A stretch of DNA of 64,000 bases from positions 1,116,001-1,180,000 of the forward strand of contig NEEC01000002.1 in assembly GCA_002189035.1 (NCBI GenBank), read 5' to 3'. The position numbers were made by a program, and so were the translations under genes. The DNA is from Utricularia gibba (Eukaryota > Streptophyta > Magnoliopsida > Lamiales > Lentibulariaceae). Positions 8,907 to 60,847 of the stretch are shown piece after piece (position 1 is the stretch's first letter; every line of letters begins with the position of its first letter). The notes under the pieces were generated by a model that searched no databases, was not told the origin of the DNA, and saw only the letters and a list, made by a program, of their open reading frames with translations.

Positions 8907-11816
8907 ATGAGGATGAGGCTGTCAAGAAACCACACCAAGAGAACTGGGGACTACCTGGAGGGGATGATAAGCGATTACTACTTCATGCAAGGGAAGCCCA
9001 AGGCCAGGGTTTCCAGAGGGGATTCATCTCGGTTCTTGACGTGCTTGCAGTTCATGTTCGCCATCTACGCGACGTCTCTGTTGCTGTACATGAGCCCGAC
9101 GATTGATCTCCGAGGGAGGATCTCGCAGCACCTGTCGCAGTTCGTGGTGACTTCCCGTGTGGTGAGTCATGTGCAGGATGGGAGTCCGGTGGCGGAAGGG
9201 GGTTGCGAGTACGAGAAGATCGACTTCGAGCAGAAGAAGTCCAACGACAGTGTGACGATCAAGATGAAGAAGGATCTGTACCAGGAGGTGCTTGATTTCC
9301 AGAGCAGGACGATCGGGACGGAGACGCTGGCGGAGCTGATGGCTATGAAGTCCAGGTGGGATTTGAAAGGCGCAACCTTGCCTAAGATCACTGTGATATT
9401 GAATCATTTCAAGCGGAAGACGCTGTGCGCGCAGCTGGACTCGCTTTTGAACCAGACGCTTCCGTTTCATCATGTCTGGGTGGTGTTCTTTGGGAGCTCT
9501 ATAGAGACATCCTTGAAGAGGATAGTTGAAAGCTATAACAATTCGAGGATCAGCTTCATCAGTTCAAATTATGATTTCAAATACTACGGGAGGTTTCAGA
9601 TGGCGCTGCAGACGGAGGCTGATCTTGTGTACATTCTTGATGATGACATGATTCCTGGGAAAAAGATGTTGGAGATCTTAGCACATGCTGCAGGAACTGA
9701 CAAGTACAAGAACGCTGTTCTGGGAAGTATTGGAAGGATTCTACCGTTCAGACAGAAAGACTTCACTTTTCCAAGTTACAGAAAGTTCAGATCAAAGGAA
9801 GCAGGCCTCTATGTCCCAGATCCTGCTTATGACATAACTCTCGACAAAGTTGTAAGAGTTGATTTTCTCTCCAGTTCTTGGTTTCTATCCTCTGAGCTTG
9901 TGAAGACCCTCTTCATAGAAACACCTTTCACATTCGCAACGGGAGAGGATCTTCACTTGAGGTATGAATCGATTTCTATCTTGCTTTTCGACAGCATGAT
10001 CATGACTGGATTTTTCTCGATTTCTGCCCAGTTATCAGCTTCAAAAGTATCGAGATGCAGGCTCTTTCGTGCTACCTGTGGATCCAAATGACAAAGAAAC
10101 ATGGGGAGATAGTGAGCATAGGCTGGCTTATGTCTCTGAAACGACTGTGATCTTCAAGGATGTGGTGAAAGTAAGAGACGATCAATGGTGGAAAGCTCTC
10201 ACAACAGGGTATATAACACAGTGGGCTTCCATGTACCCACAGCGTATCGATGCACTCTTCTACGCTCACTCTCTGGAGGAAGTGAAAGCACTGGCTCCTC
10301 TTATTCAAAAGTTCAAGACCACAACGGGTAAGAAGGGTTACCTTGTTGTCTCGGGAGGCAGTTTCTGTAGGTGCGAAGATGCAGCCCCGTAATGAAATGG
10401 AGTCCCTCTATCTGCAATGAGAGAAGGTTCAAGGTTCTTGATCTAGGAATCCACTCGTTATCCGGAGCATCGAATTCAGAGGTGCCCATTTTGCAAGCCA
10501 TCTACGCTAGCATGAAGGGGATCATTAGGATCCATAACCCAAGTGTGGTGATCACCGTCTCTGACATTGATCAAAATGTCAGAAAAGCCTTGTCTTTGGC
10601 CACAGACACTAGTGCAAATGGAACAACTCTTGTTCTCCTACCAAAAGAATCGATTTCCAACGCTCTTTGGATAGCTGATCTGCGCTCCACGGCCTTACCA
10701 TGTAGGACACTTTCCCCTGACTTGAAATTCATGATGCTGTGCTTTTCAAGCTGCTTATTGTTACAACTCCTAACCTTTCCAAATCACAATTTTGCAGACT
10801 GGAACCGGATGAAGTTGTCCATCAACATCATCACACAGAACCGTGCTCCCTCTCTTCTGAGGCTCCTAACCTCACTCAATAACGCCTACTACTTGGGAGA
10901 TAGTGTTCCAATAACCTTCAACATGGACAGCAAAGTAGATGAACCGACATTGCAGTTAGTGAAATCTTTTGAATGGGCACACGGGCCCAAGATCATCCGC
11001 AGAAGGATCATTCAAGGAGGCTTAATCCGTGCTGTGAGTGAGAGCTGGTATCCATCTTCAGATGATGACTTCGGTTTGCTTTTGGAAGACGACATCGAGG
11101 TCTCCACTTTCTACTATCTCTGGATCAAATACACGGTCCTATCATATTACTATGACCCAAAAGCCTCACTCCCAGAACTCAGCTCGGTATCCTTATACAC
11201 ACCTCGACTGGTTGAAGTGGTGAAAGAGAGACCCAAGTGGAACGCCACGGAGTTCTTCAAAAAAATCCATCCAAACACACCTTACCTCCAGCAACTCCCC
11301 TGCAGCTGGGGCGCAGTTTTCTTCCCCAAGCATTGGCGAGAATTCTACGCCTACATGAACATGAGATTCACCGAGAACGCAAAGGAGAACCCAGTTCAAA
11401 TCCCCAAATCCAGAACAAATGGATGGCAAGCCTCATGGAAAAAGTTCCTCATAGACATGATGTATCTTCGAGGATACGTGAGTCTCTACCCTAATTTCCC
11501 AAATCAGACGAGTTTCTCCACAAACCACATGGAGCCCGGTGCGCACATCAGCGCCAAGGACAACGTCGTTCAGCACGATAAGAGTGACTTCGAGGTCCCA
11601 TTGATGCAACAAGACTTCACGAAGCTGTTACCACGAGGGAAACTTCCGCAGGCTTCAAAACTACCATCCTTGAATCTCTTCAATCGCGCAGTGTCATTGA
11701 AGGGCCTGAAAGCCGCCGGCGCGAAACTGGGGAAGGACGTCTTGGAATGCCAATCGAATGAGATCGTGATGGCTAACCATGAAACCGGTTTGCCTTCCCA
11801 CTGCGCTGCCTTCTAG
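8907..11816 (+). CDS. Plant GT2-like glycosyltransferase, type II membrane protein
   Basis: Three exons: 8907-9961, 10032-10701 and 10798-11816. The ATG at 8907 is the first in the open frame and is followed by a basic, cytosolic-looking N-terminus. A single hydrophobic segment at about residues 43-63 suggests a Golgi type II anchor. Two GT-A-like blocks follow, each with an acidic metal-binding motif: ILDDDMIPG near residue 243 and LLLEDDIEVS near residue 670. The second block also carries NIITQNRA and NMDSKVDE motifs. From memory the closest relative is Arabidopsis At5g60700 (glycosyltransferase family 2). Acceptor and donor sugar cannot be read from the sequence. The frame breaks in a C4 run at 10385-10388. 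Restoring one C gives CEDAAPVMKW and a total of exactly 915 codons, so the break is probably an assembly deletion. Confidence 0.85.
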
Positions 11817-11884
11817 AATCTTCCCAGACGGCGGGCGCCATTGTTGCGGTTTTCAAAGCAATTTCCCACCATATTTATACTACA

Positions 11885-11932
11885 TCATATGCATCCATCC
11901 ATACATACATATACATACATACATACTACATA
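11885..11932. repeat. (CATA)n-type microsatellite in the 3' flank
   Basis: Imperfect CATA/CATC tetranucleotide run shortly after the glycosyltransferase stop codon. Confidence 0.8.
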
Positions 11933-12689: not shown

Positions 12690-13247
12690 ATTGTTTTTGG
12701 TGCAGAGAAGGACCATTTGACATAAAGACAATTTGGTGAGAAGGTAGCTGGTTTCCTCGCCATGGTCCATGTCACATGCCCCCAACCCAACCCGGAGTCA
12801 CACAACAAAACTGATGCTGCTGCTATGAAAGCGAAATTCTTGAAATCTGGATTCCCAACCCACCCATGACGCTTTCTCTTTTACATCTTGTGGGGTTTCT
12901 GGTGCTGGTCCAAATCACACTCAATTCCCTCCCTCATCTCTCCTATACACACTCACTGCTCCCATCAGCAAAGCCCACTTCAATACGACGGGTTACTCTG
13001 TGTAACCCCATACCATCTTGTTTGTCTGTATCCCACATCGACAGGGATAACAGCATCCCTTTGGTGCTCCCTCTGGATATTCCCAGAAACAGGATACCAA
13101 TGAAAACCTCTTGTGGGTTAACCCACAGATGACTAACCACTCCTTGTAACCCTAATCTTTTAGGGGTTATATAGCCACCATTTTTTATAGCTTTTTGTTT
13201 GAATAAATAAAATCAGTATTAAGCACACACTCGTTAGAAACATCACG

Positions 13248-13808
13248 AGGTTTGCCAGCAGGGAGAAAAAGGTAAAAACGCCTGGAATCAATTACCTTGG
13301 GTTCAGGTCAGAACCTTAAAAAGGCCTTAAAAAAATGGACAGTCATCGGTTTAATGACAATTTTGCCCCTGATTACTACCCCACCCACACGTATGACGTT
13401 TTTTTTCGAATAACCCCAAGAAAATTAATCATTAATTCCGATTAGGGTTTCCCAGCAGGGAGAAAAAGGTAAAAACGCCCGAATCAATTTCCTTGGAATC
13501 AGGTCAGAACTTTAAACAGGCCTTAAAAAAATGGACAGCCCTCGGTTTAATGACGAGTTTGCCCCTGCTTACTATCGACCGACACGTGTTTCATGTTTTT
13601 TTTTCAAAAAAACTCTTGAAAAATAATCACTAATTCCGATTAGGGTTTCCCAGTAGGGAGAAAAAGGTAAAAATGCCTGAAATCAATTTCCTTGGAATCA
13701 GGTCAGAACCTTAAAAAAATGGACAGCCCTCGATTTAATGACAAGTTTGCCCCTGCTTACTTCCGGCCGACACGTGTTTTACGTTTTTTTTTTGTCGAAA
13801 AAACCCTA
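13248..13808 (+). repeat. Three-copy tandem array, about 198-bp unit, upstream of ARF10
   Basis: Three direct copies begin near 13248, 13446 and 13644. The shared GGGAGAAAAAGGTAAAA block recurs at about 13261, 13458 and 13656. Each copy also has ATGGACAG, TTTAATGAC and TTTGCCCCTG. The third copy lacks about 14 bases around AGGCCTTA. Copies two and three contain ACACGTGT, a G-box/ABRE core; copy one has a degraded version. The array ends 0.9 kb before the ARF10 start, so it may influence ARF10, but no promoter function is shown. Confidence 0.9.
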
Positions 13809-14707: not shown

Positions 14708-16810
14708 ATGAAAAACTCGGCTGACAAGAGCGTGGATCCAGAGCTATGGCACGCCTGCGCCGGAGGAACGGTGGAGATTCCGGAGGCGAATACCCGCGTC
14801 TTCTACTTCCCACAGGGACACGCGGAGCACGCCTTCGGACACGTTGATTTTGGGGTTTTGCCCAGAATCCCACCCATGATACCTTGCAGGGTTGCCTATG
14901 TGAAATTCTTGGCAGATCCTGAAACAGATGAAGTTCATGCCAGAATCGGGCTGATTCCTCTGAGGAACAACGATGTTGTCGGTTTTGACGATGAGGGTGA
15001 TACTGGGAGCAAAATGTCCGAGTCCATTGAGAAACCAACTTCCTTTGCAAAGACACTGACTCAGTCTGATGCCAACAATGGCGGGGGATTCTCTGTTCCT
15101 AGGTATTGCGCTGAGACCATTTTCCCACGCTTGGATTACACTGCTGACCCACCTGTGCAGAAGGTGGTTGCTAAAGACATTCATGGAGATAGTTGGAAGT
15201 TCAGGCATATCTACAGAGGAACACCTAGAAGGCACCTTTTGACCACTGGATGGAGTGCATTTGTGAATCATAAGAAGCTTGTGGCTGGTGATTCCATTGT
15301 TTTCCTCAGGTCTGAGGATGGAGACCTCTGCATTGGTCTCCGAAGAGCCAAAAAGGAGTGTGCTGGTTTGGGAGGATATGGAGCTTCATCTCTTTGGGAT
15401 TATGAAACCAAGCTGTCTCCAAGAAATGCCTGCAATGGGAAGATGAGGGAGAGGGGGAGGGTGAAGCCAGAGACAGTCCTTGAGGCTGCTTTCATGGCGG
15501 CAAATGGCCATCCCTTTGAGATCATCTACTACCCCCGTGCCGGCACACCGGAGTTCTGCATCAAGGCCTCCTCTGTGAGGAATGCAATGGCGACACAATG
15601 GCGCCAAGGAATGAGGTTCAAGATGGCCTTTGAAAGCGAGGACTCTTCCAGGATCAGCTGGTTTATGGGCACAGTGGCGTCTGTTCAGTTCAGTGATCCT
15701 AAAAAATGGCCCAATTCTCCATGGAGACTGCTGCAGGTAATCTCTTTCTTGTTCTCCCACCTTGCATTTCCAGATCCACTCATACTGTCTGATGCAATAG
15801 GTAATATGGGATGAGCCTGATCTGCTGCACAATGTGAAGTGCGTCAGCCCTTGGCTAGTGGAAGTAGTGTCAAGCATACCACTTCTGTCAATCCCACCAT
15901 TGCCATCTCAGAGAAACAGGCTGCGGTTTCCGCATCCTATGGATTTTACCCTCGATGGTCGATTTCCAATGCCATCGTTTTTTGGCAACACCCTCCGCCT
16001 GAGCAGTTCCATATGTTGTCTTCCGGACAATATAGCTGCCGGCATACAGGGAGCCAGGCAATCCAAACTGGGAGTTCCCTTTTCGGATCTCCGCATCCGC
16101 AATGAAATGCAGATGGAACTTTTCCACAACGGCAATGCAAGGCAAGCTGCATCTCAGAGGACGCCGAGGATGAGGACATATCCTGCTTGTTGAGTATGGG
16201 CCATAACCCTGATCAAAAATGGGAGAAACAGGAGGAAGGGAGGAGGACTCAGTTTGTCCTCTTTGGTCAGCTCATACTCACTGAAGAGCAAATGTCTCGT
16301 GATCATCAGCAGGGCAGTGAATCACCTTCTCCTTCAATGCCCGAAGGAACTTCGAGTGGCGAAAAATGGAGGACTGAAGTCTCCACTCCTGTGGCAATGG
16401 AGCTTGAGAAACAAGGACTTGATGATGCCACTGAACTCGGCCTTGATGCTCCTCCAGGTATCTGCAAAGTATTCATGGGGCCACAAGATGTGGGTCGAAC
16501 CCTCCATCTATCTGATCTTGGATCATATGAGGAGCTATACGAAACACTCAAACACATGCTAGAAATCGACAGGAGTGACATAATCGGTCATTTGCTGTAC
16601 CTTGATGCTTCTGGTGGTGCAAAGCAAGTTGGGGAAGAGCCATTTAGGTGAGCCTACTGTCACCTGTTAGTCGTCTACGACTACTGCTTTTCAAGTACTG
16701 ATAATCATCAATCTCTGGGCGTTCACATTTGCAGTGATTTCACCACGTCTGCCACAAGACTGATGCTTCTCACAAAACCCTCTACTGTAGCAAGTGGCGC
16801 TGAGAGGTAA
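14708..16810 (+). CDS. ARF10: Auxin response factor ARF10 (ARF10/16/17 clade, miR160 target)
   Basis: Nuclear transcription factor that binds auxin response elements; clade C ARFs act as repressors. Exons are 14708-15736, 15801-16647 and 16736-16810. Order of parts: ELWHACAG start, B3 DNA-binding domain (about residues 112-215, with GGGFSVPRYCAE and RRHLLTTGW), ARF dimerisation domain (about 265-350), a middle region with AGIQGARQ, and a C-terminal PB1 domain (CKVFMGPQDVGRTL, then EEPFSDF). AGIQGARQ is encoded by the miR160 site. Two frame breaks are present. One lies between 16107 and 16180, where frame changes before DISCLLSMG. The other lies at 16739-16740, where one T is missing from the conserved SDF codons. 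Restoring one base at each makes all phases fit. An alternative last exon (16873-17008) could extend the protein by about 45 residues. ARF10 rather than ARF16 is favoured by gene order. Confidence 0.92.
16040..16060 (+). promoter_or_regulatory. miR160 target site in ARF10 mRNA
   Basis: A 21-nt site containing CATACAGGGAGCCAGGCA. Compared with the perfect complement of miR160 as I remember it, only the first base of the site (opposite the miRNA 3' end) differs. The expected cleavage point opposite miRNA bases 10-11 is fully paired. The site is in frame and encodes AGIQGARQ. Confidence 0.95.
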
Positions 16811-30713: not shown

Positions 30714-33700
30714 ATGGAAATTGATCTGAATCATGCTGTGAGTGGCGCAGAGAAGAAAAAATGCATCCATGGAAACTGTGTTTGTGGGTGCTGTTCATCC
30801 ACTTCCACTTCATCTTGCTCCTCAAATGCCTCTTCTCCTTGTTCAGTTTCTGCTCCTTTGATTTGCAAGGAGCTGTGGCATGCTTGTGCTGGACCTCTAA
30901 CCAGTTTGCCAAAGAAAGGAAATATGGTGGTTTACTTCCCCAAGGCCATTTGGAACAGACTTTCTCAGCTTCGTCACTTCCTCCCATGGAGATAAACACT
31001 TTTGGGGTTCCTCCTCATGTCTTTTGCAGAATTGTTGATGTTCAGCTACTTGTAAGTACCTCTTCTTTCAGGATCCATTGGTTTCCCCTTGTATTTACAA
31101 GTTATAGAAAATTGGACAGTTTTTTCTGATTTTTTTTCAATTAGGTATAGAACTCGATTCTAAATTAAGAGATTTTAGTCACCAAGTGTTACAGGATTCA
31201 GAAAAGTGAAGTAAGCGTAAATGTTGACTGAGAGAAACATGGTGTGGATAGAATATATTGAGCAATATTTCAAAAACACAGAGATATCAAGCATGACAGA
31301 GAGAGTGCACTGCACCAGTCCAGTCAATTAGAATGCTGGATTTTTAACTTCTTGCTTGTTTTCGGGCTGTCATTTTTAAGTTTATCGATGTTTTGAAGCA
31401 GGCCAACAAGGAAAATGATGAAGTTTTCACTAAGCTGACCTTGCTTCCTCAGCAGGAGGTAATTGCTTGTGAAAATCTTCTAGAAATGAAGATTTTTCAT
31501 TGTTATGGATTGTCTCTGTTCGGTGAAAATCTTCTAGAAATGAAGAAATTTCCTGGATTCTCCATTTTTCCATAATGTTCACTTTCTTTGGAGTCGTATC
31601 TATCATTGGCGCTAGCCATGTTGAAGTATTGTCTGTTGCAACAATGAAGGTGATGACTACCGATTTCGAAAACTATGACAGTGGTGATGAGGAGGGTACT
31701 AATGTTTTGCCATCGAAGTCAACTTCCCACATGTTCTGCAAGACGCTCACTGCATCAGACACCAGTACTCATGGTGGATTCTCTGTTCCACGCAGAGCTG
31801 CCGAAGATTGCTTCCCTCCTCTGGTGTTTATTCTTCTCGAATAGTTCTTTTTAGTTATCATGTTACTGTTATTTCTTAGGAGTTACTGTTTTTATAGGAT
31901 TATAACAAACCAAGGCCTCTCAAGAACTCATTGCTAAAGATTTGCACGGTGTGGAGTGGAAATTCAGGCACATTTACAGAGGTAAAAGTTTGATTACTTC
32001 TTTCCTTCTCACGCAATCTGATCTACAATCATATGTTGCAGGCCAGCCTCGACGGCACTTGCTGACTACAGGGTGGAGCATTTTTGTGGGTCAAAAGAAT
32101 CTCATGTCCGGAGATGCCGTTCTCTTCCTGAGGTACATTGCTTCTGATATTCTCATAATCTGCGCTGAAGTCACATGATTTGTATAAAAACTAGAGCTTG
32201 ACTTCACGTTCAGCTCACAACTGGGGAAGTTCAGATGCAGAGTGCTGTCCTAAATGGAAAAAATATACTACGTATTTAGCTAACTTCATTCTCTTGTACT
32301 GTCTGCACTCTAAAACCGCTTTTTAATATGCAGGGGAGAAGGTGGAGACCTACGGCTTGGGATTCGTCGGGCAGTTCACCCAAGAAACAGTTTACCTGAT
32401 TCAGTCACTAACAGACAGAGCTCTTATGTAAATGTCCTTTCACCAGTTGCTGATGCCCTTTCGAACAAGACCTCTTTTTCTGTCTTCTATAATCCAAGGT
32501 AACATGATCTGTGACTCGTACATGTTCTGTCAAAGGCTTACAGTTTTAGCCAGCACCAGTGAATTTGTTATATGAGTGCCAACTTGTGTTGCAGGGGGAG
32601 CTGTCCTGACTTCATCATTCCCTATCAGAAGTATGTGAAATCTACAGCAACTTCAGTGCCTGTTGGGACAAAATTCAAACTGAGATTTGACTTTGATGAT
32701 TCTCCCAAACGAAGGTTTCGATTCGTTTCGTTTTGCATCAGTTAATACCTGTTGCGATTTCCTGTTTCTATTTCCAGATAAAGGAAATGCATTGCTTCTC
32801 AAATTTTCAGTGGAGTGGTTACTGGCATCAGTGACATGGATCCCTACAGATGGCCTAATTCAAAATGGAACTGTCTTGTGGTATGTACATTTTTTTTTTC
32901 CGAATGACTCAAGTTTTTTGGATACTGCTTCACGTAACAATGCTTTCTGGTTGCAGGTTCGTTGGGACGATGATGTCTTGGGCCACCACCATGACCGTGT
33001 TTCACCATGGGAAATCAGTTTTCCACCTAACTGTACACCGTTTCGCGTTGAGTCCTCTCCTACTCCCAGACACAAGAAATTAAGATCAGACATGCAGGGA
33101 ACCCCTCATGGCTGCTCACTCCCAGGTGCTCATCTTTTCTTTGGAGATTCCTCCCCTTTCCACCTGTCTCTTCTCATTGTGTAGATGTATTTTCATAATG
33201 CAGGAAGGCATGGGATTTTGGACTTCAATGAGTCGATTCGACCCTCCGAGGTCTTGCAAGGTCAAGAAAATGGTGTTTCAGTACCATCTCTGTATGGAAG
33301 GGATCCAAGAAGTTTCAGGCTGCAACAGACTGTTAGTAGTCGCATGATGGAGCGAAGCAGCTACAATGAGCTCTTGCCAAACCATGCTCCTCCCACAACC
33401 TTCACTGGCTTTCTGGAATCAAACTGGTTTCCTAGGGTCTTGCAAGGTCAAGAAATTTGTTCTCTGAGGTCTCTAACTGGGAACAGGGAAATAAAACATG
33501 GTGCTTGGTCCAAGCCAGAACTGAACCCCAGGCCTCAGATGAGCTTCTACCCTCTAGCCTCCGAAGGTGTGAGAAATGTGACCATTTCTCAAAAGGGTGT
33601 CTATGTGATGGAACCACAAAGCCCTCTAACTCCCACAACCATCTTCAATGCCCAGCCTTTGAGCCACACCTTAGCAGAAACCTCCCTGCGCTGCAGAAAC

Positions 33701-34517
33701 CTTGTTGAGATCGATGGAGTATCTCGTCTTCAGTATGAACAAGGGGCGGTGGAGAAAACACCTGCACCAGAAGCATCAACTGTGCATAACAGCAGAAGTG
33801 GGGGTGACAGTGATAAGGAGAAGAACCCCTCAAGGTGCAAGATATTTGGTTTTTCATTGACTGATGATCCAGAAACTCGCAGTCTGCATGGCTCTACCAA
33901 GAGGAGGTGCACAAAGGTGAGATTCTATTTGACTTGGTGCATGCATGTCTGTCATTTTTGAGGAACTACAGTTCATTTCTGCTCTCTGATAAGGTTCACA
34001 AACAAGGTAGCTTGGTGGGACGAGCCATTGACCTCTCAAGGCTCAATAATTATGATGAGTTGCTGATAGAACTGGAGAGGCTGTTCAGCATGGAAGGCCT
34101 GCTGCGTGACCCCAAAGAAGGATGGTGCGTGTTGTACATGGACAAAGACAATGACATGATGGTCGTTGGAGATGACCCCTGGCAGTAAGTCCCCTTCCTT
34201 AACACTGAGTTCCCTGAATGCCAACCAGAAAGAGAGCCATAGCCTCTGAACCTGGAATCATTAAGATGTAAAGAAATGGCTGTTTCTCCTACTGCAGCGA
34301 GTTTGTGGAAGTGGTGACGAAGCTTCATCTCTACACACAACAGGAAGTGGAGAAGCTGACGATCATCACAAACAGCGATGACACCAAAAGCTGCTTAGAA
34401 GAAGCACCACCGGCCCCTGATGCATCAAAGTCGCCTTCAGTCGGGCAACTGGACTCTTCTTCCCCGCAACGTTGCGTTTGTGAACTGCTAAGAACGTCAT
34501 GCATGTCTTTCCCTTAG
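30714..34517 (+). CDS. ARF4: Auxin response factor ARF4 (ARF3/ARF4 clade, tasiR-ARF target)
   Basis: Twelve exons: 30714-31051, 31402-31458, 31650-31823, 31898-31981, 32042-32132, 32334-32498, 32595-32714, 32811-32880, 32957-33125, 33204-33916, 33994-34184 and 34298-34517. With two bases restored they give 798 codons, close to Arabidopsis ARF4. Parts in order: [11 protein letters not shown]3 domain ([17 protein letters not shown] to the GDAVLFLR region), ARF domain (VFYNPR to VRWDDD), a middle region with two VLQGQE motifs, and a C-terminal PB1 domain ([13 protein letters not shown], then DDPWHEF). The PB1 domain separates it from ARF3/ETTIN. The protein is a nuclear repressor controlling abaxial identity and phase change. 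Frame breaks occur at 30938-30941 (C run in YFPQGHLEQ) and about 31911-31920 ([10 protein letters not shown] region). The exon 3 acceptor is the least certain boundary. Confidence 0.95.
33248..33268 (+). promoter_or_regulatory. tasiR-ARF target site 1 in ARF4
   Basis: A 21-nt site with GGTCTTGCAAGGTCAAGAA as its core, encoding VLQGQE. Against TAS3-derived tasiR-ARF as I remember it, it has one mismatch near the 5' edge of the site and one G:U pair near the middle. Confidence 0.93.
33434..33454 (+). promoter_or_regulatory. tasiR-ARF target site 2 in ARF4
   Basis: Second copy of the site, 186 bases downstream of the first and in the same reading frame (RVLQGQEI). Paired sites are the norm in ARF3 and ARF4 genes. 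Confidence 0.93.
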
Positions 34518-35036
34518 TTCAGACACTTCTTGCTCTAAGAAACTAATTTGTAATGCTGGACATCCTTGATTTACATCAACCGCCCCTGATACTCGCAACT
34601 TCCTGATGCAGCAAGCCGTTTGTTATCTCTACTTAATCTAGTTAAATACTGCAATGCTTCTCACACAAGAAGCTTGTGGGTGCATTCTCAGACCACCCAC
34701 AGCACGCCACGCCACGGATGGTCATGTCACAAGAGTGGTTTGGGGAATTCTGTCTTTCACCTATCTCTCTTTTCAAAAAAAAAAAAACAAAAACAAAAAC
34801 AAAACAAAACATAATTTCATTTTTTTCTACAACCAACATTCAGTTCCTTTCTAAAGTTCAATCTCTCCCACAGTCAGTTTCTAAAAAAAGCTGCAAAAAG
34901 AAAGTATAGGCGACTGCACATAACCATGATGCAAATTTCTAGTTATTAGGTGGTCGTAATGGAGCTTCATGTCTGTAAAAGTAAAGTCGATGGAAGTGAA
35001 AAATCTCAGCTCCCGAGCTCCTCCAAGTCATTCATC

Positions 35037-35682
35037 TTAAATGGTCTGCTCCAGAGGGAATACTCCGATGCCATTCTCGTCCAGCGAGCAGCTCCCACTG
35101 TTGAAGTACTCCATAACGCAATACGAAATATCGTCGAACGTGTTAAAGTTGATCAGCGGCGACACGGTCTCCCCCAAATCATGGCCTGGAGACTATCCTT
35201 CTCGCCCTGCAGTTTATCAAGCTGTGCTTGTGCTTTTGCCAGCTGCGCCTGGAGCTCACTCACTTGTCTCTGGAGCTGGAAGATCGCTCCGGCGCTCCCG
35301 TACACCGGATCTCTAAGCCTCGCATTCGCTTCATATACGATGCTGGAAACTGCGTCCGCCCTCTGGGACTCAGGAAGTTCCTGCAAACACTGAAGCTTAA
35401 TACCGCATGTCATGAGATCATGTTCCATAGTCGGCATGCCACTACACTATCCACGCCGTAGCAGTGCCAGTGCATTTAGACAATTTAATAAGATTGTATC
35501 GCCGGGTCACCAAAGTGGGCAAGCTTACGTACCTGCAAGTTTTTGATGATGTTGCTGGCACCGAACACGCGATGAGCGGTGGCGAACCTGAGAGGATCCG
35601 AAAGCGGGAAGTATGGCGCCAGAAGGCAGTTGTCCGCGCACCGGCGCCGGAGAACTCTACAGGCGGCGCAAGGGTAAACCAT
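35037..35682 (-). CDS. LBD11: LOB-domain protein, LBD1/LBD11 type (class I)
   Basis: Two exons, 35533-35682 and 35037-35380. Plant-specific nuclear transcription factor. The zinc-finger-like C block CAACRVLRRRCADNC (pattern CX2CX6CX3C) is followed by the FGASNIIK part of the GAS block. Then come DPVYGSAGAI and a leucine-rich coiled coil (LQRQVSELQAQLAKAQAQL). The start at 35682 places the C block at residue 5, so the N-terminus is short for the family. The frame breaks in a five-base C run at 35171-35175. One more base extends the protein through YCVMEYFNSGSC to a stop at 35037-35039, giving 164 residues with phases that close. LBD11 is favoured over other class I members by its position next to VHA-a1. 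Confidence 0.9.
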
Positions 35683-35764
35683 GAAGAAGACGATCGAATT
35701 AATTCCAGACTACACCTTGGTGAGGATATTTATACACGCTGAGAGAGAATTTTCCAACAGGTAT

Positions 35765-37573: not shown

Positions 37574-40500
37574 ATGGAGTACGTCGACAATTTGCCAAGC
37601 ATGGATCTGATGCGCTCTGAGGAGATGATGTTAGCGCAACTTATCTTTCCTGTTGAGTCGGCGCATCGCGCTGTCTCTTATCTGGGTCAACTCGGTCTCC
37701 TCCAATTCCGAGATGTACGTTTGGATCGGATCTCTCTGTTTTACTCCTGTTGTCGCTTCAACATGTTTCTTGGATCCTCTATAGGTTTTGAGTTCTAGTG
37801 TAGAGTTTCTGGGGAATGTGAGTTGAATAAAAGCCAAAAGGTAAAGCACGGTACTTGGAAAAATGTGATTTATTCTAATGATGCGTCTAGTCTTGTTTCA
37901 CTAATTAAAAATGATCACCTTGGAGTGGCTTGCACTGTTGTTTAGATTATATGTATCGGAATCAATGGTAAGGGTTCAAGATCTTATAAAATATTGTTCG
38001 GTATTTTTAGGCTGGAAAAGTGCTGTATACCGACATGGTAGAGATTTGAATGAAAATTAGACTGCCGTGTAAACATAATTTACTGCAAACTTCGTATTTG
38101 AGTTGGGAAACAAGAATTTGACTCAGTTGCATGCTGGGTTTAAAAAGTGAATAAAATCAAGTGTTGGCATGGCCAAGTGGAACATATTTTACTGGAAAGG
38201 ACCCTTTCATTTTCTGGCAGTTTTACCAAGTCTTTAAGCTGTGAGAGTTTTATCGAGATTTTCATCAGGGTAGTCTTGGTTTAATGTCTTGCAGTCGCAG
38301 AAGTGGAATCATTTGAGCCAGGTTTTTCTATTTATGATGAATCTTTTTAACTGTCTTTCATAAATGAATCTTTCTTGCAGTTAAATGAGGAAAAAAGCCC
38401 ATACCAGAGGACATTCGTCAGTCAGGTAGTCTGATATATAAGATTCTACTGTGTCCTGCAAGCCTTCCGTGCTACTATTTCATTGTTCACAGCCTCTCAT
38501 GCTGCACATTTAGTTCTTGACTAAGAGTTTCATTATTTCGTCTTTTGCAGGTAAAAAGATGCGCTGAGATGTCCAGGAAACTGCGGTTTTTCAAAGAACA
38601 GATCCACAAAGCTGGTTTATTGCCTTCTGCCTCTCCAGCTTCGCAACCTGATATTGACTTGGAAGAACTGGAGGTTTGTTTGTTTTCATTTATATTGAGG
38701 GCGTTTGCTGATTGGCTAAATTACTGGGATGTGTTTGATCCCCATACTTGCTATCATTTTTGTTGTTTCCATTTTTAGTAACTGAAGATCATCATCTGCT
38801 TTTATGTTGATTAGGTTCGACTTGGTGACCATGAACACGAGTTAATTGAGATGAATGCTAATGGTGAGAAATTGCAGCAGTCATACAATGAGCTGCTCGA
38901 GTTCAAGATGATACTGCAGAAGGTATCCTATCAGCACCTTTGCCTCTGTAAATAGAAAGCAGAATTTCAAAATTGGTAGCGATTGAAATGTCATGCGCTT
39001 GTATTGGATTCATGGTTTCGTGTGGAAAGTAATGTTTTTTGAGTTGGGATTGCATTTTTTATGGACTCAGGGTAATGATTGGGGACAAGAAATGGCATCT
39101 TCAAATAAAAAAAAATGGAAATATTTAAGGATACGTGGAAGATCTCTGTGTAATATATTTGTACTGCTTCTTGTCAGTTAGTCATGCCTTTTGGAGGATC
39201 CTGAAAATGTTATATTAACGTCATTCTTATGCACATCATCTCATATGGGTTATGCAGGCAGGTGATTTCCTTGTGCCAAATGGGAGTCATTCTCGAATAC
39301 AAGATACTGAATTAGATGAACATATGTATACAAACCATGACCACTCAGATACTGTGTCATTGCTTGAACAGGCAGTAAGTAAGACGACATTGATTGCTTG
39401 ATTAACTAGAACTTCAGAATTACTGCATCATGGGGATTTTTAATCTCAGGAGATGCAGCCTGGGCCATCACACCAATCTGGAGTAAAATTTATTAGTGGC
39501 GTAGTCTGTAAATCAAAGTCCCTCAGTTTTGAGAGGATGCTATTTCGAGCAACCAGGGGAAACATGCTTTTTAATCAGTCTCCTGCTAAAGACAAGATTT
39601 TGGATCCCTCATCAAACGAAATGGTAACAATTTCTCCCAGTTGTGATTGATAGGGTTATTTGATGTTTATGAGTATTTCTTCTCTATTACTGACTTTAAA
39701 TAAGATGTTTCCTGTTTTGTATGATTTCCATCTTTTGAGTTATATTATATTGCTTAATACTGCATCTCAGATATGTTGGCCTTCTGCAGGTTGAAAAAAC
39801 TATTTTTACGGTTTTTTTCTCGGGAGAGCAAGCACGGAAAAAGATCTTAAAAATCTGTGAAACATTTGGCGCGAACTGCTACCCAGTCCCTGAAGACACA
39901 ATAAAGAGGATGCAAGTATCAAAAGAAGTGAGACCTTCATTTGTACAGTTAGTGAAGATTCTGGCTGCATTTTGCTCAGCAATTTTACGCTTGGAGAGAT
40001 TTGATTTCACTGTTTACTTATTTCTCAATGTTTATGATTCACCTTTGACTTACTGTGAGTTGCATTCGTGCTTGTATCAAGCATTGTGGTTTTGGGTGAA
40101 ACCATAACATATTGATGCTAGGAGCTTCTGATTTTCAGGTTACATCACGCTTGTCAGAGTTAGAAACAACACTAGAGGCAGGCATACGTCATCGTGATAT
40201 GGCTCTCACTTCTATTGGTTCTCAGCTTACAAAATGGATGAATATGGTTGGTAATTCAACCGGACTTTACGTAACTAGATAATTTCAACACAATGGTGCT
40301 AGTTTTTTTGTTGAAGGCTGTTTCTTACATTTTTTCTCCAGGTAAAAAGGGAAAAGGCAATTTATGACACCCTAAATATGCTGAATTTTGATGTCACAAA
40401 GAAGTGTCTTGTTGGTGAGGGTTGGTGTCCAGTATCAGCAAAGACCTTGGTATGGATGTGACCAACCATGTAGTATGCTTCATTTTTTATGTAAATGACG

Positions 40501-42971
40501 CATGCTTATGTTTAAAACTTCACAGATTCAAGAAGCCCTACAGCGTGCTACTTTTGATAGTAGTTCACAAGTGGGTGTCATTTTTCATGTTGTGGATTCA
40601 ATTGAGTCACCTCCAACATACTTCAGGACCAATCGTTTTACCAGTCCATATCAAGAAATCGTTGATGCATATGGGTAAGACCATCTATTTGCATGTTTTT
40701 TGAAAGTCAGAAATTTCTTTTTAGTTATGTTGCTTATCTGACATTTTCCTTTTACATCTTCTGGATAAATTTGAATGTGTTCCTTTTTTCAATAATTAAA
40801 AAAATGTAGTTTTTCTTTTCTACTAATATTGATGGAGTACCGTTTCGTGCATGCAGTAGCTTGTAGTTAGCATGCTGCTGATGAGAAAATTTTATTTTGA
40901 CAGAGTTGCCAAATATCAAGAGGCAAATCCTGCTGTTTATACCATTGTTACATTTCCATTTCTTTTTGCGGTGATGTTTGGGGACTGGGGTCATGGCATA
41001 TGCTTATTGCTAGGAGCATTAGTCCTTATAGCTCGCGAAAAAAGGCTTGGTTCTCAGGTACGCTTTGCTTGTATTGAAGGATTTGTCTATGCCTCATTTT
41101 CCACATGAAATAATTTTCGTATTAGCTTTGAGTACCATGGCACTACTTCCTTATATGAGATTGCTGTCTCTATATTCCAACCCCATTTCCTGTTTAATGA
41201 ACCCCTTTTTTTTTTTAGAAACTTGGAAGCTTCATGGAGATGTTGTATGGGGTAGATATGTCCTCCTTTTGATGTCTCTCTTTTCTATCTATTGTGGATT
41301 AGTGTACAATGAATTCTTCTCTGTTCCTTTTCACATGTTTGGAAGTACTGCATACAAATGTCGGGATGCTACCTGCAGGTATATGCCAATTTCCCTTCTA
41401 TTGGTTAGGGGAAATTTCCAGTTACATTAGTTTCATTTGATCTTTTCGCTCACTTGCAATATGTGTTAAATATGCATTGATATTTTCCGGTTTCTTCCTT
41501 TTCCTCAACAGTGATGCTCGGTCAGTTGGATTAGTAAAATTTGGCAGTACTTATCCATTTGGTGTGGATCCAAGTTGGCGTGGTAGTCGTTCTGAGCTGC
41601 CTTTCTTGAACTCTCTGAAGATGAAAATGTCTATCTTGTTTGGTGTGACCCAGATGAATCTAGGAATTGTATTAAGTTATTTCAATGCAAGATTTTTTGG
41701 AAATTCACTTGATATCAAGTAGGTTTTATATTCTCCTTTTAACTTATTTTGTTATTCCTCAAGGATGGTAGCTCATTCCTTTTACCTTCGTATCAGGTAT
41801 CAATTTGTGCCGCAAATGGTCTTCCTAAACTGTCTCTTTGGATATCTTTCACTTCTCATTATTATCAAATGGTGTACGGGTTCTCAAGCAGACCTCTATC
41901 ATGTGATGATATACATGTTTTTAAGCCCCTTTGAAGATTTGGGTGCCAATAAGCTCTTTTGGGGCCAGGGCATTCTTCAGGCATGATTCGAACTTTTGTT
42001 ATTTACTAAATTTATGGAGCATGCCATTGTGTTGAGTAGTGTAAAAGTTTGGCAGGTCATTTTGTTGGCTTTGGCTGTTGTTGCCGTCCCATGGATGCTG
42101 TTCCCCAAGCCTTTTATTCTAAAGAGACTTCACAGTGAGGTATCAGTCTAATCGAGATTTCTAAGTTTTATAGCCTTGGCTGCTCCAATTGATTCTTAAA
42201 GAAGGGGTCACGGAGCGGGTGGGACAGGGACTGGACTAAGTGGGAAACATGAATCATAGGAAACATCATCTAGGATGATGTTTAATGATGAAACAATATC
42301 TGTTGCATGTTTCTGGGATGATTTAACACTTCCTACTGTTGCATATTTAAGAGGTTCCAAGGCCAGACATATGGGATTCTTGGAGTCTCAGAGATGAACC
42401 ACGACGAGGAACCCGACTCCGCCAGACGGCCACATATCGAGGATTTCAATTTCAGCGAGGTCTTTGTGCATCAAATGATCCATTCTATAGAGTTTGTGTT
42501 GGGTGCCGTTTCCAACACAGCCTCCTATCTCCGCCTCTGGGCTTTAAGGTACGCACACCATCTCCCCCATTGCCCTGCCTGCATTTCCATCATTGATTCC
42601 CATGATTGCTGCTTCATCCTCGCTTCACTGCAGCCTTGCCCATTCGGAGTTATCCACCGTTTTCTATGAAAAAGTTCTGCTTCTTGCGTGGGGGTAAGTC
42701 ACCCGATCCCACCTCTTCACGATGCATTCATCATCATCACCCATTCTCGCTGATGATCTGCCGCAGGTACGACAACCTGGTGGTCCGCCTGGTGGGCCTC
42801 GCAGTCTTCTCCTTCGCCACAGCATTCATTCTCCTGATGATGGAGACCCTCAGCGCATTCCTGCACGCTCTCCGTCTCCACTGGGTGGAGTTCCAGGGCA
42901 AGTTCTACGGTGGAGACGGCCACAAGTTCAGGCCCTTCTCCTTTTCTGTTGCAACGGAGGACGATGACTAA
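37574..42971 (+). CDS. VHA-a1: V-type proton ATPase subunit a, a1 isoform
   Basis: Large membrane subunit of the V0 sector; it forms the proton half-channels. Eighteen exons were traced from the ATG at 37574 to the stop at 42971. Their phases give 821 codons once one missing G is restored, matching the a1 isoform length. The N-terminal cytosolic half starts [16 protein letters not shown], which I associate with VHA-a1 (trans-Golgi network/early endosome) rather than tonoplast a2/a3. The C-terminal half has the membrane helices, including [17 protein letters not shown] and the [16 protein letters not shown] helix with the essential arginine. The C-terminus is [11 protein letters not shown]. 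The frame break is in a G4 run at 41249-41252 (MLYGGRYV). Intron 14 (41981-42055) begins with GC. Confidence 0.97.
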
Positions 42972-43593: not shown

Positions 43594-46500
43594 AATGGCG
43601 ACTGAGGACCCAACGCGCGCATTCATGCGCGATGTCAAGCGTGTTGTCATCAAGGTTGGTTGTGTGTAGAGTAATGTGCATATGGAATTTGTTTTTATGG
43701 TTTTGGAAATGTTTGTGTTACGTGGGTTTTCTTGATTCATGACAATGGTTTGCATTGTTTCCTTGTGAGGTGTTCTCAAAAAAGTCTGTATAAAAGTTCT
43801 CTTTTTGTATTCATTTTTTTCTTGCGTCTGCCAAAATGCTGGGATGACTTCCATCCATCCCATACGTTGAAAAGCTTGCGCCTTTTTATCCCTGTCCTGG
43901 TTTTCGTGTTTCTATCGATTGTTGCAATGCCAAACCTTTTGCATTCTCGTGCCGTGTATTGTATGGATCAAGGTTGGAACCGCAGTTGTCACCCGGGCTG
44001 ATGGTAGAGTGGCTCTTGGAAGACTAGGCTCTCTGTGTGAGCAGGTTATATACTGTGCTTCTTATTATGTGGCACTCTGAATTTACTAGTCTTCTAACCT
44101 TTTGCTACTGAAATTGACTGCGGTGCAGATTTATGAATTGATTTCAGAAGGTTACGAAGTTATTTTGGTGTCATCAGGTGCTGTTGGTATTGGTCGTCAG
44201 CGTCTTAGACACGAAGTGATTCACAACAGGTTTTTGATTTCCATGTAGCATTTGGTTTTCTCTGTCACAACAGGTCGTCAGCGTCTTATTATGTAGAATT
44301 GTTTTTCTGTTTCCTTAGGCTCTTAAAGGAAAAGATAATTTTTTTAATAATCGATGACTTCTGTTTCTTACCTTCAGTTCTGTTACTTTTCATCATTTCA
44401 GCTCGCAAGACCTGCAAAAGCTTCAGGTGGAGCTTGATGGGAAAGCTTGTGCAGCTCTGGGACAAAACGGCCTTATGGCCTTGTATGACAATTTATTTAG
44501 TAAGGTGAATTTCTTTGACAACAGGCTTTTGTATTCACCATGTTACTACGTTATTGTATCTTCAGAGTATTTTCGAGGTATTGGACAGAATGAGTGTTCT
44601 GCCATTAACTTTTCGAGATATCTAATACTCTTTTGAAACAGCTGGACGTGAGATGTGCTCAACTTCTCGTCACTGATAATGATTTCAGAGACCCAGCTTT
44701 TAGGAGACAGCTAAATGTGACTGTTAACTCTTTATTATCTCCAAAAGTAGTTCCTATATTTAATGAAAATGATGCTGTGAGTACCAGGAGTGCTCCTTAT
44801 GAGGTTTGTTCATTATCTCTATTTCTATACAAAAATATGCCATGTTTAATCTATGAATCAGATCATGATTGATTATTATGATTTTTTTAGGTATCTTGAT
44901 TGTTTTAATTGGGATATTAATTATCAGCATTTTCGAAGTTTTTTTTTATTTTAGGTACATATTGAATTCCTTGGCCACCTGTTCATCCTGATTCACTTAA
45001 TCATTTCATAGGACTCTTCTGGGATATTTTGGGACAATGATAGCTTAGCAGCTCTACTGGCACTCGATCTGAACGCTGATCTTCTTGTACTGCTGAGTGA
45101 TGTAGAAGGTCTTTATAGTGGGCCACCGAGTGATCCACGTTCTGAAATGATTTATACATACTGTAAAAAGATGCATGAAAGTCTTGTAACTTTTGGAGAG
45201 AAGTCCAGAGTGGGAAGAGGAGGCATGACTGCTAAAGTGAAATCTGCTGTTTATGCTGCCGATGCTGGCATCCCAGTTGTTATAACCAGGTAAAACCTTT
45301 GACGTAAATCCCAAAGAGTTGAACCTAGCACAGTTCTGTGTTCTGCAAACATAAAAACGGGCGTTTTGATGTGAATCCCACAGAAATATTTCATAGAAAA
45401 TTGTTTCCTTGTACTTGTGTGTACCACAGAAATAAAAGAAGTTTTTATTTAACCAAAATTTCTGTCTTTTTTTCTTTGTCTTTTCTCCGGTAGTTGGTTT
45501 TGACTCATTTTCTTTCCTGGTAAACAAACTCTTCTGCGAGAAGTGGTTATGCGGCTGATAATATTTTAGAAGTCCTGAAGGGGAAGCGTATTGGCACATT
45601 GTTTCATCGAGATGCAAATGAATGGGTGCTGCCTGGAGAAGTCAGTGCACGCGAAATGGCAAAAGCAGCAAGAGAAAGTTCAAGACTACTCCAGGTAATT
45701 GCTGAAATTTTTTTATGATATTAGCTGCTAAGGTGAGAAATATATATATATTTTTCAGGCTTTGTCTTCCAAAGAGAGGAGCGGGATTTTGCTTGATGTA
45801 GCTAATGCACTAGAAGCCAATGAGAAATTAATTCTGGAAGAAAATGAAGCCGATGTTACTGATGCAAAACAGGCTGGGTATGAGAAGTCTTTGGTATCTA
45901 GACTTTCCTTGAATCCTGGTAAGGTAAGACAGATAGCATGAGGGAACTCCCAGAACTTTAACTGCATTATGGTTCGCTGACAAGACCTTTCTCTGACCCT
46001 TTCTTTCAGATTTCAAGCCTTGCTAATGCAGTCCGTTTGCTTGCGAATATGGAAGAGCCTGTTGGCCAAGTTCTGAAGAGAACAGAGGTAATCAACAATA
46101 TATGAAGATTTATAGATGCGTTATTTCTTGCATGGTAATCTAAATTACTAATTAGCTGATTATAGGGTAAATAGATTTTCAAACTAATGCAATTTGAACT
46201 TGTTATCAGGAATGATCTGAATTCCTGATTTTTTTTTCTTTTTTGTAGGTCTCAGAAAGTTTTGTATTAGATAAAACAGCATCTCCCTTGGGTGTTGTCT
46301 TGATCATTTTTGAGTCACGGCCTGATGCTCTTGTCCAGGTAATGAAGGAGGACACGTTTTATGCATGCATACCCATTTGTTAATGAAACTAGGGAACTAG
46401 GTGTGCTTGTTTGTACGCCATGAACTTGTATATATACTGGAAGTCCAATTGTTTTATCCCTTCTGTGATTCTTTGGTGTATCCTTAAAGAACTATTATTA

Positions 46501-48632
46501 TAATTGCATTGCGCACCTGTTGACAGATAGCATCATTAGCATTACGAAGTGGTAATGGTTTGCTTTTAAAAGGGGGAAAAGAAGCCAGACGATCAAATGC
46601 AATCCTGCATAAGGTTAACTTGACTAAGTTGTCCTTGAGTTTTCTTCGCATGTTAAAAATTTTGCTACTAGATTTGGTGCCTGGTATATCTCTTTTTTTA
46701 AAAAAAAAAAAAATCATGTTTCCTATATATTAGGTAATTACTTCGGCTATCCCAGACACCATTGGGAAGGGGCTGATTGGTCTGGTGACTTCAAGGGAAG
46801 AGATTCCTGAATTGCTCAAGGTGACTCCATATGATTCCTTTTTTTTTTATCAAATGTCTGTAGCTTAAGAATACACAACCTGGTTCCTGGTGTTTGAACT
46901 GATGGTGATTGTTCTGGTGAAGTTGGAAGATGTCATCGACCTTGTCATACCGAGAGGCAGTAACAAATTAGTCTCTCAAATCAAATCATCAACCAAGATT
47001 CCGGTCCTAGGCCATTCTGGTAGCCTTGATGTGTAACCCTCATTCATAATTTTTTTTATCAATTGGTAACTAAGTATTTAAGGCTGCATAACTTTTTTTC
47101 ACAGATGGTATCTGTCATGTTTATGTTGATAAATCGGCTAATATGGATATGGCAAAACAGATTGTGGTTGATTCGAAAATAGATTACCCTGCTGCATGCA
47201 ATGCTATGGTATTTTTTTTTCTATACCATCACCTGCATCTGTTACTATATGGGAATGATGATTGTGATATATGTTATCTTCCTTCCTAATGTTGGCCGCT
47301 GTTATATTAATAGTTTATATCTTAGACACTGACCGAATTCTCTGTTTCAAGGAAACACTACTTGTTCATGAAGACTTGGTTCAAGATGGCCGCATCAATG
47401 AACTTGTCCTGGAACTTCAAAATAAAGGTAAGTTTCCATGTAACCATTCTTCCTTATTTTCTGGTTTTTCCATTGAAGTTGTGAACTCCAATACATGTGG
47501 CACATTGTTGCATCAAGCGATGTTTAAAATTTGATGTCATGAAGGTTAAAAACTTAAAATCACAGTCAATCATCCTGAGAAGTTGCCTTTGGCCAATTAC
47601 TAGTGGCAAAATGCATTACAAATACAAGATTTGAAAAAAGAATATCTCCAATCCATTGCATGTTGATTCTTTCTATGCTCCTGCATTGAGGATAAATCAT
47701 GTTACAATGAAGATATGGATAAGTTGACACTTCATTGTTTATGAAATGAAAATGTAGGTGTCGAATTATTCGGTGGGCCTCGAGCAAGTTCTTTGCTGAG
47801 TATTCCTATGGCACCTTCCCTCCACCATGAATACAGTTCTCTTGCTTGCACTATTGAAATCGTGCATGATGTAGAGGCTGCAATTGATCACATACACGAG
47901 CATGGAAGGTACGCCTTCCATTTGTTCTGCAGTTCTTGTGTCATTATGCGTGCACACGGATTGTGGCTTCATCTGTTCTCTGATGTAGCATTGATCCTTT
48001 CATTCATCAGAGTTTTCTCTTGATTGCAGTTCTCACACAGACTGCATTGTGACAGAAGACCAAAATGTCGCCGAAGTGTTCTTGCAGCGCGTCGACAGGT
48101 GCTTCGAAGTTACATCTTACTCTGATCCCTTTGCATGCTCTTAAACCTGCTACCTCGAAATCTCATTGTGGAATTGGATATTCCAGTGCTGCTGTGTTTC
48201 ACAATGCAAGTACAAGGTTCAGTGACGGCTATCGATTCGGGTTAGGTGCAGAGGTAAGCTCTGGAACTTGGTGTCCACTAGGAATCATTCCACAGCTGTT
48301 ACAGCACGGTTCTGCCGATACTGAACAGGTTGGAATTAGCACAAGTCGGATCCATGCTCGTGGTCCTGTGGGGGTTGAAGGATTGCTTACTACACGATGG
48401 TATGTCCCCGGAACATCCTCTTTCGGCCATCCTGCGGTTGATTTTCGATGACTCGCATCATGGTTCATCAACCCTCATTCACCTGTTTCCCCTCCGAAAT
48501 CAACCTGCTTTCTTTTGGCATAAATGTCTCAGGCTCGGCAGAGGAAACGGGCACGTCGTAAACGGAGACAAAAACATCCTGTACACCCACAAGGACCTCA
48601 CTCGGCAGCTCCTACAGGAAGAGTCCAAGTAA
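43594..48632 (+). CDS. P5CS: Delta-1-pyrroline-5-carboxylate synthase (bifunctional, proline synthesis)
   Basis: Catalyses the first two steps of proline synthesis from glutamate: phosphorylation by the N-terminal glutamate 5-kinase domain (about residues 1-290) and reduction by the C-terminal gamma-glutamyl phosphate reductase domain (about 300-716). Twenty exons were followed from [20 protein letters not shown] to LLQEESK without a frame break. Visible motifs are [11 protein letters not shown], the [10 protein letters not shown] segment, GRGGMTAKV and [11 protein letters not shown], plus the conserved [15 protein letters not shown] around the catalytic cysteine. Phe127 in DNDFRD corresponds to the phenylalanine known for proline feedback inhibition in legume P5CS, so feedback control is probably kept. 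Active in cytosol and plastid in other plants. Convergent with the MAM33 gene. Confidence 0.98.
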
Positions 48633-58180: not shown

Positions 58181-58186
58181 TGTAAT

Positions 58187-58199
58187 TTCTAGAATGTTC
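58187..58199 (+). promoter_or_regulatory. Heat-shock element, perfect three-unit
   Basis: TTCTAGAATGTTC is a perfect alternating TTC-GAA-TTC array for heat-shock factor trimers, about 115 bases upstream of the TATA box. Confidence 0.9.
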
Positions 58200-58274
58200 G
58201 GGTAATTTCACCATCCTCTTCTTTTCTATTTCCACCGAGCTCTAGATTTCGCGGTGCGGTGCGGTGCCTTTCTG

Positions 58275-58287
58275 GAGCCTTCAAGAA
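58275..58287 (+). promoter_or_regulatory. Second heat-shock element
   Basis: GAGCCTTCAAGAA matches GAA-TTC-GAA spacing with one imperfect unit (GAG). It lies about 25 bases before the TATA box, the usual proximal position in plant sHSP promoters. Confidence 0.75.
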
Positions 58288-58312
58288 AACTCGCGTTTCC
58301 TCGAAACGCTCC

Positions 58313-58319
58313 TATATAT
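58313..58319 (+). promoter_or_regulatory. TATA box of the sHSP gene
   Basis: TATATAT about 80 bases upstream of the ATG, directly after the proximal heat-shock element. Confidence 0.8.
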
Positions 58320-58395
58320 TTCTCTGCTACTCCAGATGATCATCATCGTCGATCAGTTTCAAACGGTTTAGCAAAGGATCAACTAGCGTCTCACC

Positions 58396-58857
58396 ATGTC
58401 TCTGATTCCAAGCTTCTTCGGTGGCCGCCGCAGCAACGTCTTCGATCCGTTCTCACTGGAAATCTGGGATCCATTCCAGGGTTTGGAAGCGATCGCGAAT
58501 GTTCCATCGGAGACAACCGCCATCGCCAACCCGCGGATTGACTGGAGGGAGACGGCGGATGCGCACGTCTTCAAGGTAGATGTTCCTGGTTTGAAGAAGG
58601 AGGAGGTTAAAGTGGAGGTGGAAGATGGGTCGATTCTGCAGATTAGTGGGGAGAGGAGCAAGGAGCAGGAGGAGAAGAACGATAGGTGGCATCGTGTGGA
58701 GAGGAGCAGCGGGAAATTCCTCCGCCGATTTAGGCTGCCGGAGAATGCGAAACTGGATCATGTGAAGGCGGGGATGGAGAACGGGGTGCTCACTGTTACC
58801 GTCCCCAAGGAGGAAGCCAAGAGGCCGGAGGTCAAAGCTATTGACATCTCCGGTTAG
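58396..58857 (+). CDS. Class I cytosolic small heat-shock protein
   Basis: Single-exon gene of 153 residues (about 17.5 kDa), the usual form for class I sHSPs. The N-terminal arm begins [20 protein letters not shown], the class I signature. The alpha-crystallin domain (about residues 46-135) contains [20 protein letters not shown] and ends with GVLTVTVPK. The C-terminus has KAIDISG, carrying the I-x-I-type anchoring motif. The protein forms dodecamers that hold unfolding proteins for HSP70/HSP100 refolding in the cytosol. Regulation is clear: a perfect heat-shock element, a second proximal element and a TATA box precede it. The 3' end faces that of Rubisco activase 263 bases away. Confidence 0.97.
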
Positions 58858-59120
58858 TAGATTTTGTTGCACGTAAGGTGTTTGTAAGCTTGTCTCTGAT
58901 GAATAAGAAGCCACTTCCTGTGGCTCCATGTTTGGTGTGCTCCTGTATCTAGCCTAGATGTGCATCTCTGTGTGTAAGGCTGTGGACTGTGTACGCTATA
59001 TGATACACGATCATGTAAATTTTTGACCCTTTTTTCAAGCAACAACACACAACCCAGAAACAGGGGAAAACCAGAGGTGATAGGAATCATTCCAAGGCTT
59101 CTTCTTTTTCTTGCTGTTGT

Positions 59121-60847
59121 TTAGCCTTCGAAGAAGGTTCCTCTCTCAATGGCGTCCTTATTGGCGTCACCAAGAGCGGCGTCTTTCAGGTAAGTCTCTG
59201 CCAACTGAACTCTTTTAACATTCTCCTGCTCCTGCACCAACATGTTTCCGTACTCCAGCAGCTTGGCAAGGGTCATCTTCGGCTGCTCGAATGTAGGAGG
59301 GCCTTCTCGTGAGTTAACTAGCTTCTTCCCAATGTTTTCCACCCCGACTCCGGTGACCCATTTCCGAACTTCGTCGTCATAAACTCTGGCCCTCAGAGCT
59401 CCGAAAAAATCTGCATCGATTTGCCGGAGAAGAAGAAAGATTAGATTTGGATGCATAGTGATATAAGATGTGTACTCCGGAAGTCATCACCGTACCGATG
59501 GATTGCCCGGGGAAGTTGTCGACGAGGGTGACGATGGCGGACTCAGCGACGTCGTCTTTCTTGAAGATGCCCTTGCAAACACCGATCCGATCCTCGCGAG
59601 TAGGAGCCCAGTAAAATTTCTCCATACGACCGTCACGGATGAGCGGGGCGTAGAGTGTGGAGAAGTCGTTTCCGGTGACGATGATGGGGACGCGAGGATT
59701 CTCCTCCTTGTTGTACATGCCTGGGAGCTGCACGTTGGTGGGGTTATCGGCGATGTTCATCAGAGTAGCGTTAACCATCTGGTTGTTCACAGTGTATTGT
59801 GTGGTGCCGCCAAGACGGCCAGCGCCGGCGTCGAGGTCGTTGATGAAGAGGCAACACATTTTGCCCTTTTTCTTTATGATATCCGCCGCCTCGCGGTACC
59901 TTTGCCGGATCAGCTTCGCTGGTTCTCCGGCGTTTCCACTCTCCAACTCTCCGGCGCTCATCATAATCGGCCTGAAAACCGAAGCATCAGACTTTTAACT
60001 CCACCGAGCAGAAAGCTCTCAGTAGTAGAACAACCCCAAATTGATTTGGCTTACGTGATTCCCATCTTAGCGAAAGCGAGCTCGCATTGGAACGATTTGC
60101 CCTGCCCTTTTCCTCCCCAGATTCCCAGAATCAATGGCACCTGCAACAAACAGTTCAAAATTTACCAAATCCCCATCACTGATGCGCTCAAAAAGTAACT
60201 GAACCAGACCCACCTTGATGTTGGGCAAGGTCATGAAGTTCTTGGCAATGTGAATGACGAGCTTGTCCAAGAACGCCGGCGCAATGTAATAATCTCCCAT
60301 CATGTTGTCAATATACCTGAAAACTCAACCATATTCAGATTCCCCATCTCTACCCCGAAATCGAAATCTGGATCAAAGTAAACGGATTCGGTTTCAGTTC
60401 ATTACACTCTGAGCCCCTGGCTGATGTAATCGTAGGAACTGAGAACAGCGTCGTGAGTGCCCATTCCATCAGGCGCCTGGAACAGCGTGTCCACCATTCC
60501 CTTACCTCTGGTAATATCCTGCTGATCATCGGAAATATCCTTAGCCAATCCCCCCACCTGTCCTTTTCCGTCTGAGTATCCTCGTCGATTTCCTTCGCAG
60601 CGACGATTCTGAAGCACCCAGAAGAAACTTTAGACGCATTCGAGGAGGAGCAAACTTTCTTCAACCCAACCCCAGTCAGAAACGACGAACTCGGAAGCGC
60701 CGCCGTTCCATTCAATCTTACCTGCAAAAATGCTCGAGATGTAAACCCCATAACGCGAAGAGAGTAAAAAGAAAGTGACGTATGCATGTAAGAAAAGTGT
60801 ACCGGCAAGCGGTTGACGGCGCCGAGGCTGGAGACGGCGGTGGCCAT
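59121..60847 (-). CDS. RCA: Rubisco activase, short (beta-like) form, chloroplast
   Basis: AAA+ ATPase that removes sugar phosphates from Rubisco in the chloroplast stroma. Six exons: 60803-60847, 60406-60721, 60214-60316, 60055-60140, 59496-59971 and 59121-59410. With one base restored they give 438 residues. The transit peptide begins [15 protein letters not shown]. Walker A is GGKGQGKS and Walker B is LFINDLDAG, followed by [20 protein letters not shown] and [20 protein letters not shown]. The end is [11 protein letters not shown], with no redox-regulated cysteine extension. A shifted frame across the stop reads [13 protein letters not shown], but without those cysteines either. The frame breaks in a C6 run at 60550-60555 ([13 protein letters not shown]). 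A TATA box (60886-60892) and an ACACGTGT G-box (60957-60964) precede the gene. Confidence 0.96.

Follow-up and report, generated by a model that had tools for sequence, protein, structure and literature searches.

Several conserved genes in the stretch of DNA analysed here (the window, 64,000 nucleotides; bases 1116001-1180000 of the 6.8-Mb contig C451 in an assembly of 100.09 Mb and 516 contigs) are interrupted by breaks of the reading frame, which raises the question of whether these genes are broken in the plant or only in the assembled sequence. From its size and contiguity, the assembly is, we infer, the PacBio HGAP genome of Utricularia gibba, which has been described as about 101 Mb in size (PMC6982007) and as an HGAP assembly of 88-fold coverage with a contig N50 of 3.4 Mb, HGAP being a PacBio-only procedure with polishing by Quiver (PMC5793159). 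No statement on short-read polishing was found in the literature on this assembly, and a literature search for frame breaks in U. gibba returned no relevant report.

Frame breaks in the window genes

Most window genes have duplicates elsewhere in the genome, many of them in collinear blocks on contigs C142 and C2. The open frames of each window gene were compared with those of each duplicate, and it was determined which copy shifts while the other reads on; window and duplicate were then aligned as DNA at each break site. The second ARF4-like break and the breaks in the LBD and V-ATPase subunit a genes were placed by DNA alignment, because the automatic frame chain gave no clean isolation of them. 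Some out-of-frame or intron-spanning pseudo-breaks from chains against distant duplicates were left out of the counts. Seven window breaks were found to stand in six genes, and by comparison with the duplicates all seven are -1 shifts in the window copy.

The glycosyltransferase gene (about 8904-11816), whose domain Pfam assigns to the GT2 type (PF00535), breaks at a CCCC run at 10385..10388 on the forward strand; the C142 duplicate (L025) is in frame, and its run is one base longer than that of the window. A third copy of this gene (L026, C451:319300-322900) has about four -1 breaks of its own, some at C runs. The ARF10-like gene (about 14708-16807, forward strand) breaks within 16122..16145, at an uncertain position with no long homopolymer, and downstream of its B3 and ARF_AD domains; the C142 duplicate (L027) keeps the frame where the window copy shifts. 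Past this one break the frame reaches the end of the exon, and the last exon closes with a TAA near 16807 that matches the C142 duplicate, so that the second ARF10 break proposed in the initial annotation is not needed. Two breaks stand in the ARF4-like gene (about 30714-34492, forward strand). At the first, a CCCC run at 30938..30941, both duplicates (L029 on C2 and L030 on C321) are in frame; at the second, at about 31916..31921 and outside any homopolymer, the window is one base shorter inside the exon than the C2 duplicate in the DNA alignment.

The LBD gene (about 35030-35683, reverse strand; LOB domain PF03195) breaks at 35171..35175, where CCCCC corresponds to five G on the coding strand; when it was aligned as DNA with its duplicate in L029 on C2, the C-terminal motif common to both continued in the shifted frame only. 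For V-ATPase subunit a (gene at about 37574-42971, forward strand; V_ATPase_I domain PF01496), DNA alignment with the C409 duplicate (L031) revealed a break at the GGGG run at 41249..41252. Finally, the gene for Rubisco activase (RCA; about 59121-60860, reverse strand; AAA and RuBisCO_activase domains) breaks at 60550..60555, where CCCCCC corresponds to six G on the coding strand, and three duplicates (L035, L037 and L038) are in frame at this site.

Thus, the nine breaks in seven genes of the initial annotation came down to these seven, with the second ARF10 break dropped, and its count of five breaks in C or G runs of 4-6 proved exact for the seven confirmed sites, with runs taken as called. 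The other two sites (ARF10 and the second ARF4) lie outside homopolymers. A further break was suspected in a MOM-like gene on the forward strand, at about 4290..4345, where the open frame ends at 4326; no duplicate of this gene was found in the genome, and the place lies outside the span within which the initial annotation had put its breaks.

Neighbouring genes had been described as intact, and this was upheld for P5CS, DRB2, TOPP and sHSP. P5CS (43595..48632, forward strand), which served as an intact control, splices cleanly from 20 exons into one open frame of 722 codons with a single terminal stop. The window copies of DRB2, sHSP and TOPP showed no clean break against their duplicates, the TOPP comparison being with C480, and MAM33 looks intact as judged by eye only. 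The TOPP duplicate on C142 carries a break of its own.

Selection was assessed by codon counting against the duplicates. Ka/Ks was 0.06-0.24 before the breaks and 0.05-0.27 after them (the latter range covering the genes other than LBD), and 0.12-0.16 in intact neighbours, much like the broken genes; because several genes have Ks values close to 1 or higher, the absolute ratios are approximate, and a gene lost very recently would not yet show it in them. As far as can be measured, these ratios indicate that the broken genes remain under purifying selection past the breaks. Besides the frame breaks, no further decay was seen in the broken window genes.

Missing bases across the assembly

Parts of the large contigs C412 and C451 recur almost unchanged as two small contigs, C316 (38 kb) and C41 (36 kb) respectively, which could be used as replicates. 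When 10 kb was aligned between the pairs (L020/L021 for C316 and C412; L022/L023 for C41 and C451), 28 indel events were counted versus 3 substitutions. In 27 of the 28 indels, sequence is absent from the small contig, often one base of a C/G run of 2-5; single bases are also missing outside runs. Moreover, C412 (2.6 Mb) has a GRAS gene with an open frame of 615 aa, which one missing C in C316 splits into frames of 229 and 412 aa. The C316/C412 pair shows directly that the assembly makes the missing-base error and that genes break by it. The small redundant contigs probably have lower coverage than the 6.8-Mb contig of the window, and their error rate should therefore not be applied to it. No redundant contig was found over any window break, where the matches were diverged duplicates and repeats only.

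A set of 29 clean breaks was then assembled, drawn from GRAS and HSP70 genes as well as from the window genes and their duplicates. Every one of the 29 is a -1 shift. Random placement within these genes would put 2.8 of the 29 in contact with a C/G run of 4 or longer, whereas 17 were found there (P about 2e-11); for runs of 5 or longer, the figures are 0.43 expected and 9 observed. For three window sites in this set, two of which lie in runs, the position was assigned manually on the alignments; the excess at C/G runs does not hinge on these three. When C/G runs were counted by length over the whole window, no clear cliff was seen.

In profile searches, the complete domain lay in a single frame at about 25 GRAS loci and many further loci were split, and split loci were also found for HSP70. 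Where adjacent GRAS or HSP70 profile matches left too little space for an ordinary intron, the shift was -1 in 21 cases and +1/-2 in 5, and match pairs that overlap in the DNA were all -1; split matches separated by 40-60 nt were left aside as possible introns. One of the five +1/-2 cases, a GRAS gene at C244:1854416, is best read from its sequence as two separate missing bases. About a third of GRAS loci have such a break. One conserved set of GGPP codons, which form a C run in the coding sequence, is the break site in several GRAS genes, including two with DELLA-like sequence; in other GRAS genes the frame stays open across the entire domain. Miscounting of the run would be expected to produce such a common break site, which is hard to explain by independent mutation. 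Cpn60/TCP1 was considered as a third family for estimating the rate and was set aside, its genes being split into many exons.

The break rate in the sampled genes is roughly one per 3 kb of coding sequence. The window has 7 breaks over a coding length estimated at 20-22 kb, and the GRAS genes have about 17 over an estimated 44 kb, so that the two densities are similar; the window is therefore average, and the locus is neither special nor a hotspot. Local biology would leave other genes clean, and the GRAS and HSP70 genes are broken as well. The missing-base problem is genome-wide, beyond what the initial annotation could see.

Real frame breaks appear to exist in the genome as well. Two HSP70 copies (L045, C241:12500-18800; L046, C304:2235300-2241600) are 16 substitutions apart over about 3.2 kb and have one frame break in common, outside a homopolymer. 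As the copies have diverged and still have the same non-homopolymer break, this break looks like a real, inherited one. For this reason, the ARF10 and second ARF4 sites are held with less confidence. Because the redundant contigs also lose single bases outside runs, these two breaks are probably the same error as the run sites, though they may be real mutations.

Explanations for the breaks

The breaks are very probably long-read consensus errors, in which single bases were dropped, mostly from C/G runs called one short. One could instead propose that the frameshifts are real, and that the genes are duplicates recently pseudogenised after whole-genome duplication through replication slippage in C/G runs. 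The duplicates of the broken genes could cover for such a loss, slippage likewise favours homopolymers, and at least one break, that in HSP70, looks inherited; frame-disrupted copies of genes that have duplicates are, moreover, what pseudogenes of this origin look like. However, slippage yields insertions as well as deletions, whereas no +1 shift occurs among the clean breaks. Selection does not appear relaxed, given Ka/Ks values as low after the breaks as before them and as in the intact neighbours, and the genes lack the additional decay of such pseudogenes. The proposal would also need independent loss at the same run in several GRAS genes, and one broken gene has an intact replicate contig, again unlike pseudogenes that follow whole-genome duplication. 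Pseudogenisation is therefore considered improbable as the explanation for these breaks.

Two other proposals were considered. If the breaks were very short introns or alternative exon ends, the compactness of the genome would be in keeping with this, and introns could indeed account for a few split matches elsewhere in which the gap is 55-60 nt. At the clean break sites, however, the duplicates read straight through and the two frames abut or overlap in the DNA, so that there is no room for an intron; at those in the window this reading is excluded by geometry, and we give it next to no weight. It is just as hard to credit that the bases are truly absent and that programmed ribosomal frameshifting or transcriptional slippage on C/G runs restores the frames during expression. 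A conserved C run broken repeatedly in several GRAS genes would fit such restoration, as would continued purifying selection past the breaks. Yet the window genes' duplicates have the site at full length and are in frame at the homologous positions, so that the frame change conserved among homologues at the same site, by which programmed frameshifting is recognised, is not seen in them. Other GRAS genes likewise remain unbroken throughout their domain, a near-identical replicate contig differs by exactly such a base, and the sites vary, with no common slippery sequence or stimulating structure seen. That a slippage peculiar to this lineage acts at C/G runs to restore genes truly lacking bases is accordingly scarcely believable.

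We thus return to consensus error, and the initial attribution to homopolymer undercalling is borne out for most sites by the uniform sign, the concentration in C/G runs, the purifying selection and the differences between redundant contigs. The long-read consensus would drop single bases mostly where C/G runs are called one base short, and the same error would operate throughout the assembly, at the rate seen in the sampled genes. Since the same error breaks many other genes across the genome, the damage is almost certainly technical, not biological, and the affected genes are almost certainly intact in the plant. Reads would be expected to show one extra base at each window site.

Assembly errors of this kind are well described for long reads (Kastor, BMC Genomics 2025, PMC12007338); that work cites the analysis of Watson and Warr on homopolymer indel errors that pseudogenise genes in silico. 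As in those cases, single-base deletions tied to short homopolymers fragment conserved genes throughout an assembly. Unlike those cases, which involved mainly A/T runs, the present runs consist of C or G and occur in a plant; moreover, our evidence came from duplicates and redundant contigs rather than from reads.

Consequences for annotation and structure of the locus

Biologically the case is an ordinary one, and it serves as a useful warning on annotation of this assembly. With about a third of GRAS loci broken, claims on gene loss, pseudogenes or family size that are drawn from this assembly alone would be inflated, and the small redundant contigs, if annotated, would inflate gene counts. 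Screening frame breaks by sign and run context would allow likely errors to be told apart from real pseudogenes.

Positions 8900-64000 of the window are collinear with two duplicate blocks, C142:1207000-1256000 and C2:5468900-5518100. The C142 block holds the glycosyltransferase, ARF10 and TOPP, and the C2 block holds ARF4, LBD, sHSP, RCA and others; this division of the window genes between the two blocks gives a picture of what may be fractionation after genome duplication. Upstream of ARF10, at window positions 13240-13800, a unit containing cagcagggagaaaaaggtaaaaacgcc occurs about three times in a tandem-like arrangement. At window positions 8100-8415 lies a repeat about 300 bases long that is dispersed over the genome, some 40 copies having been scored at 71-78% identity.
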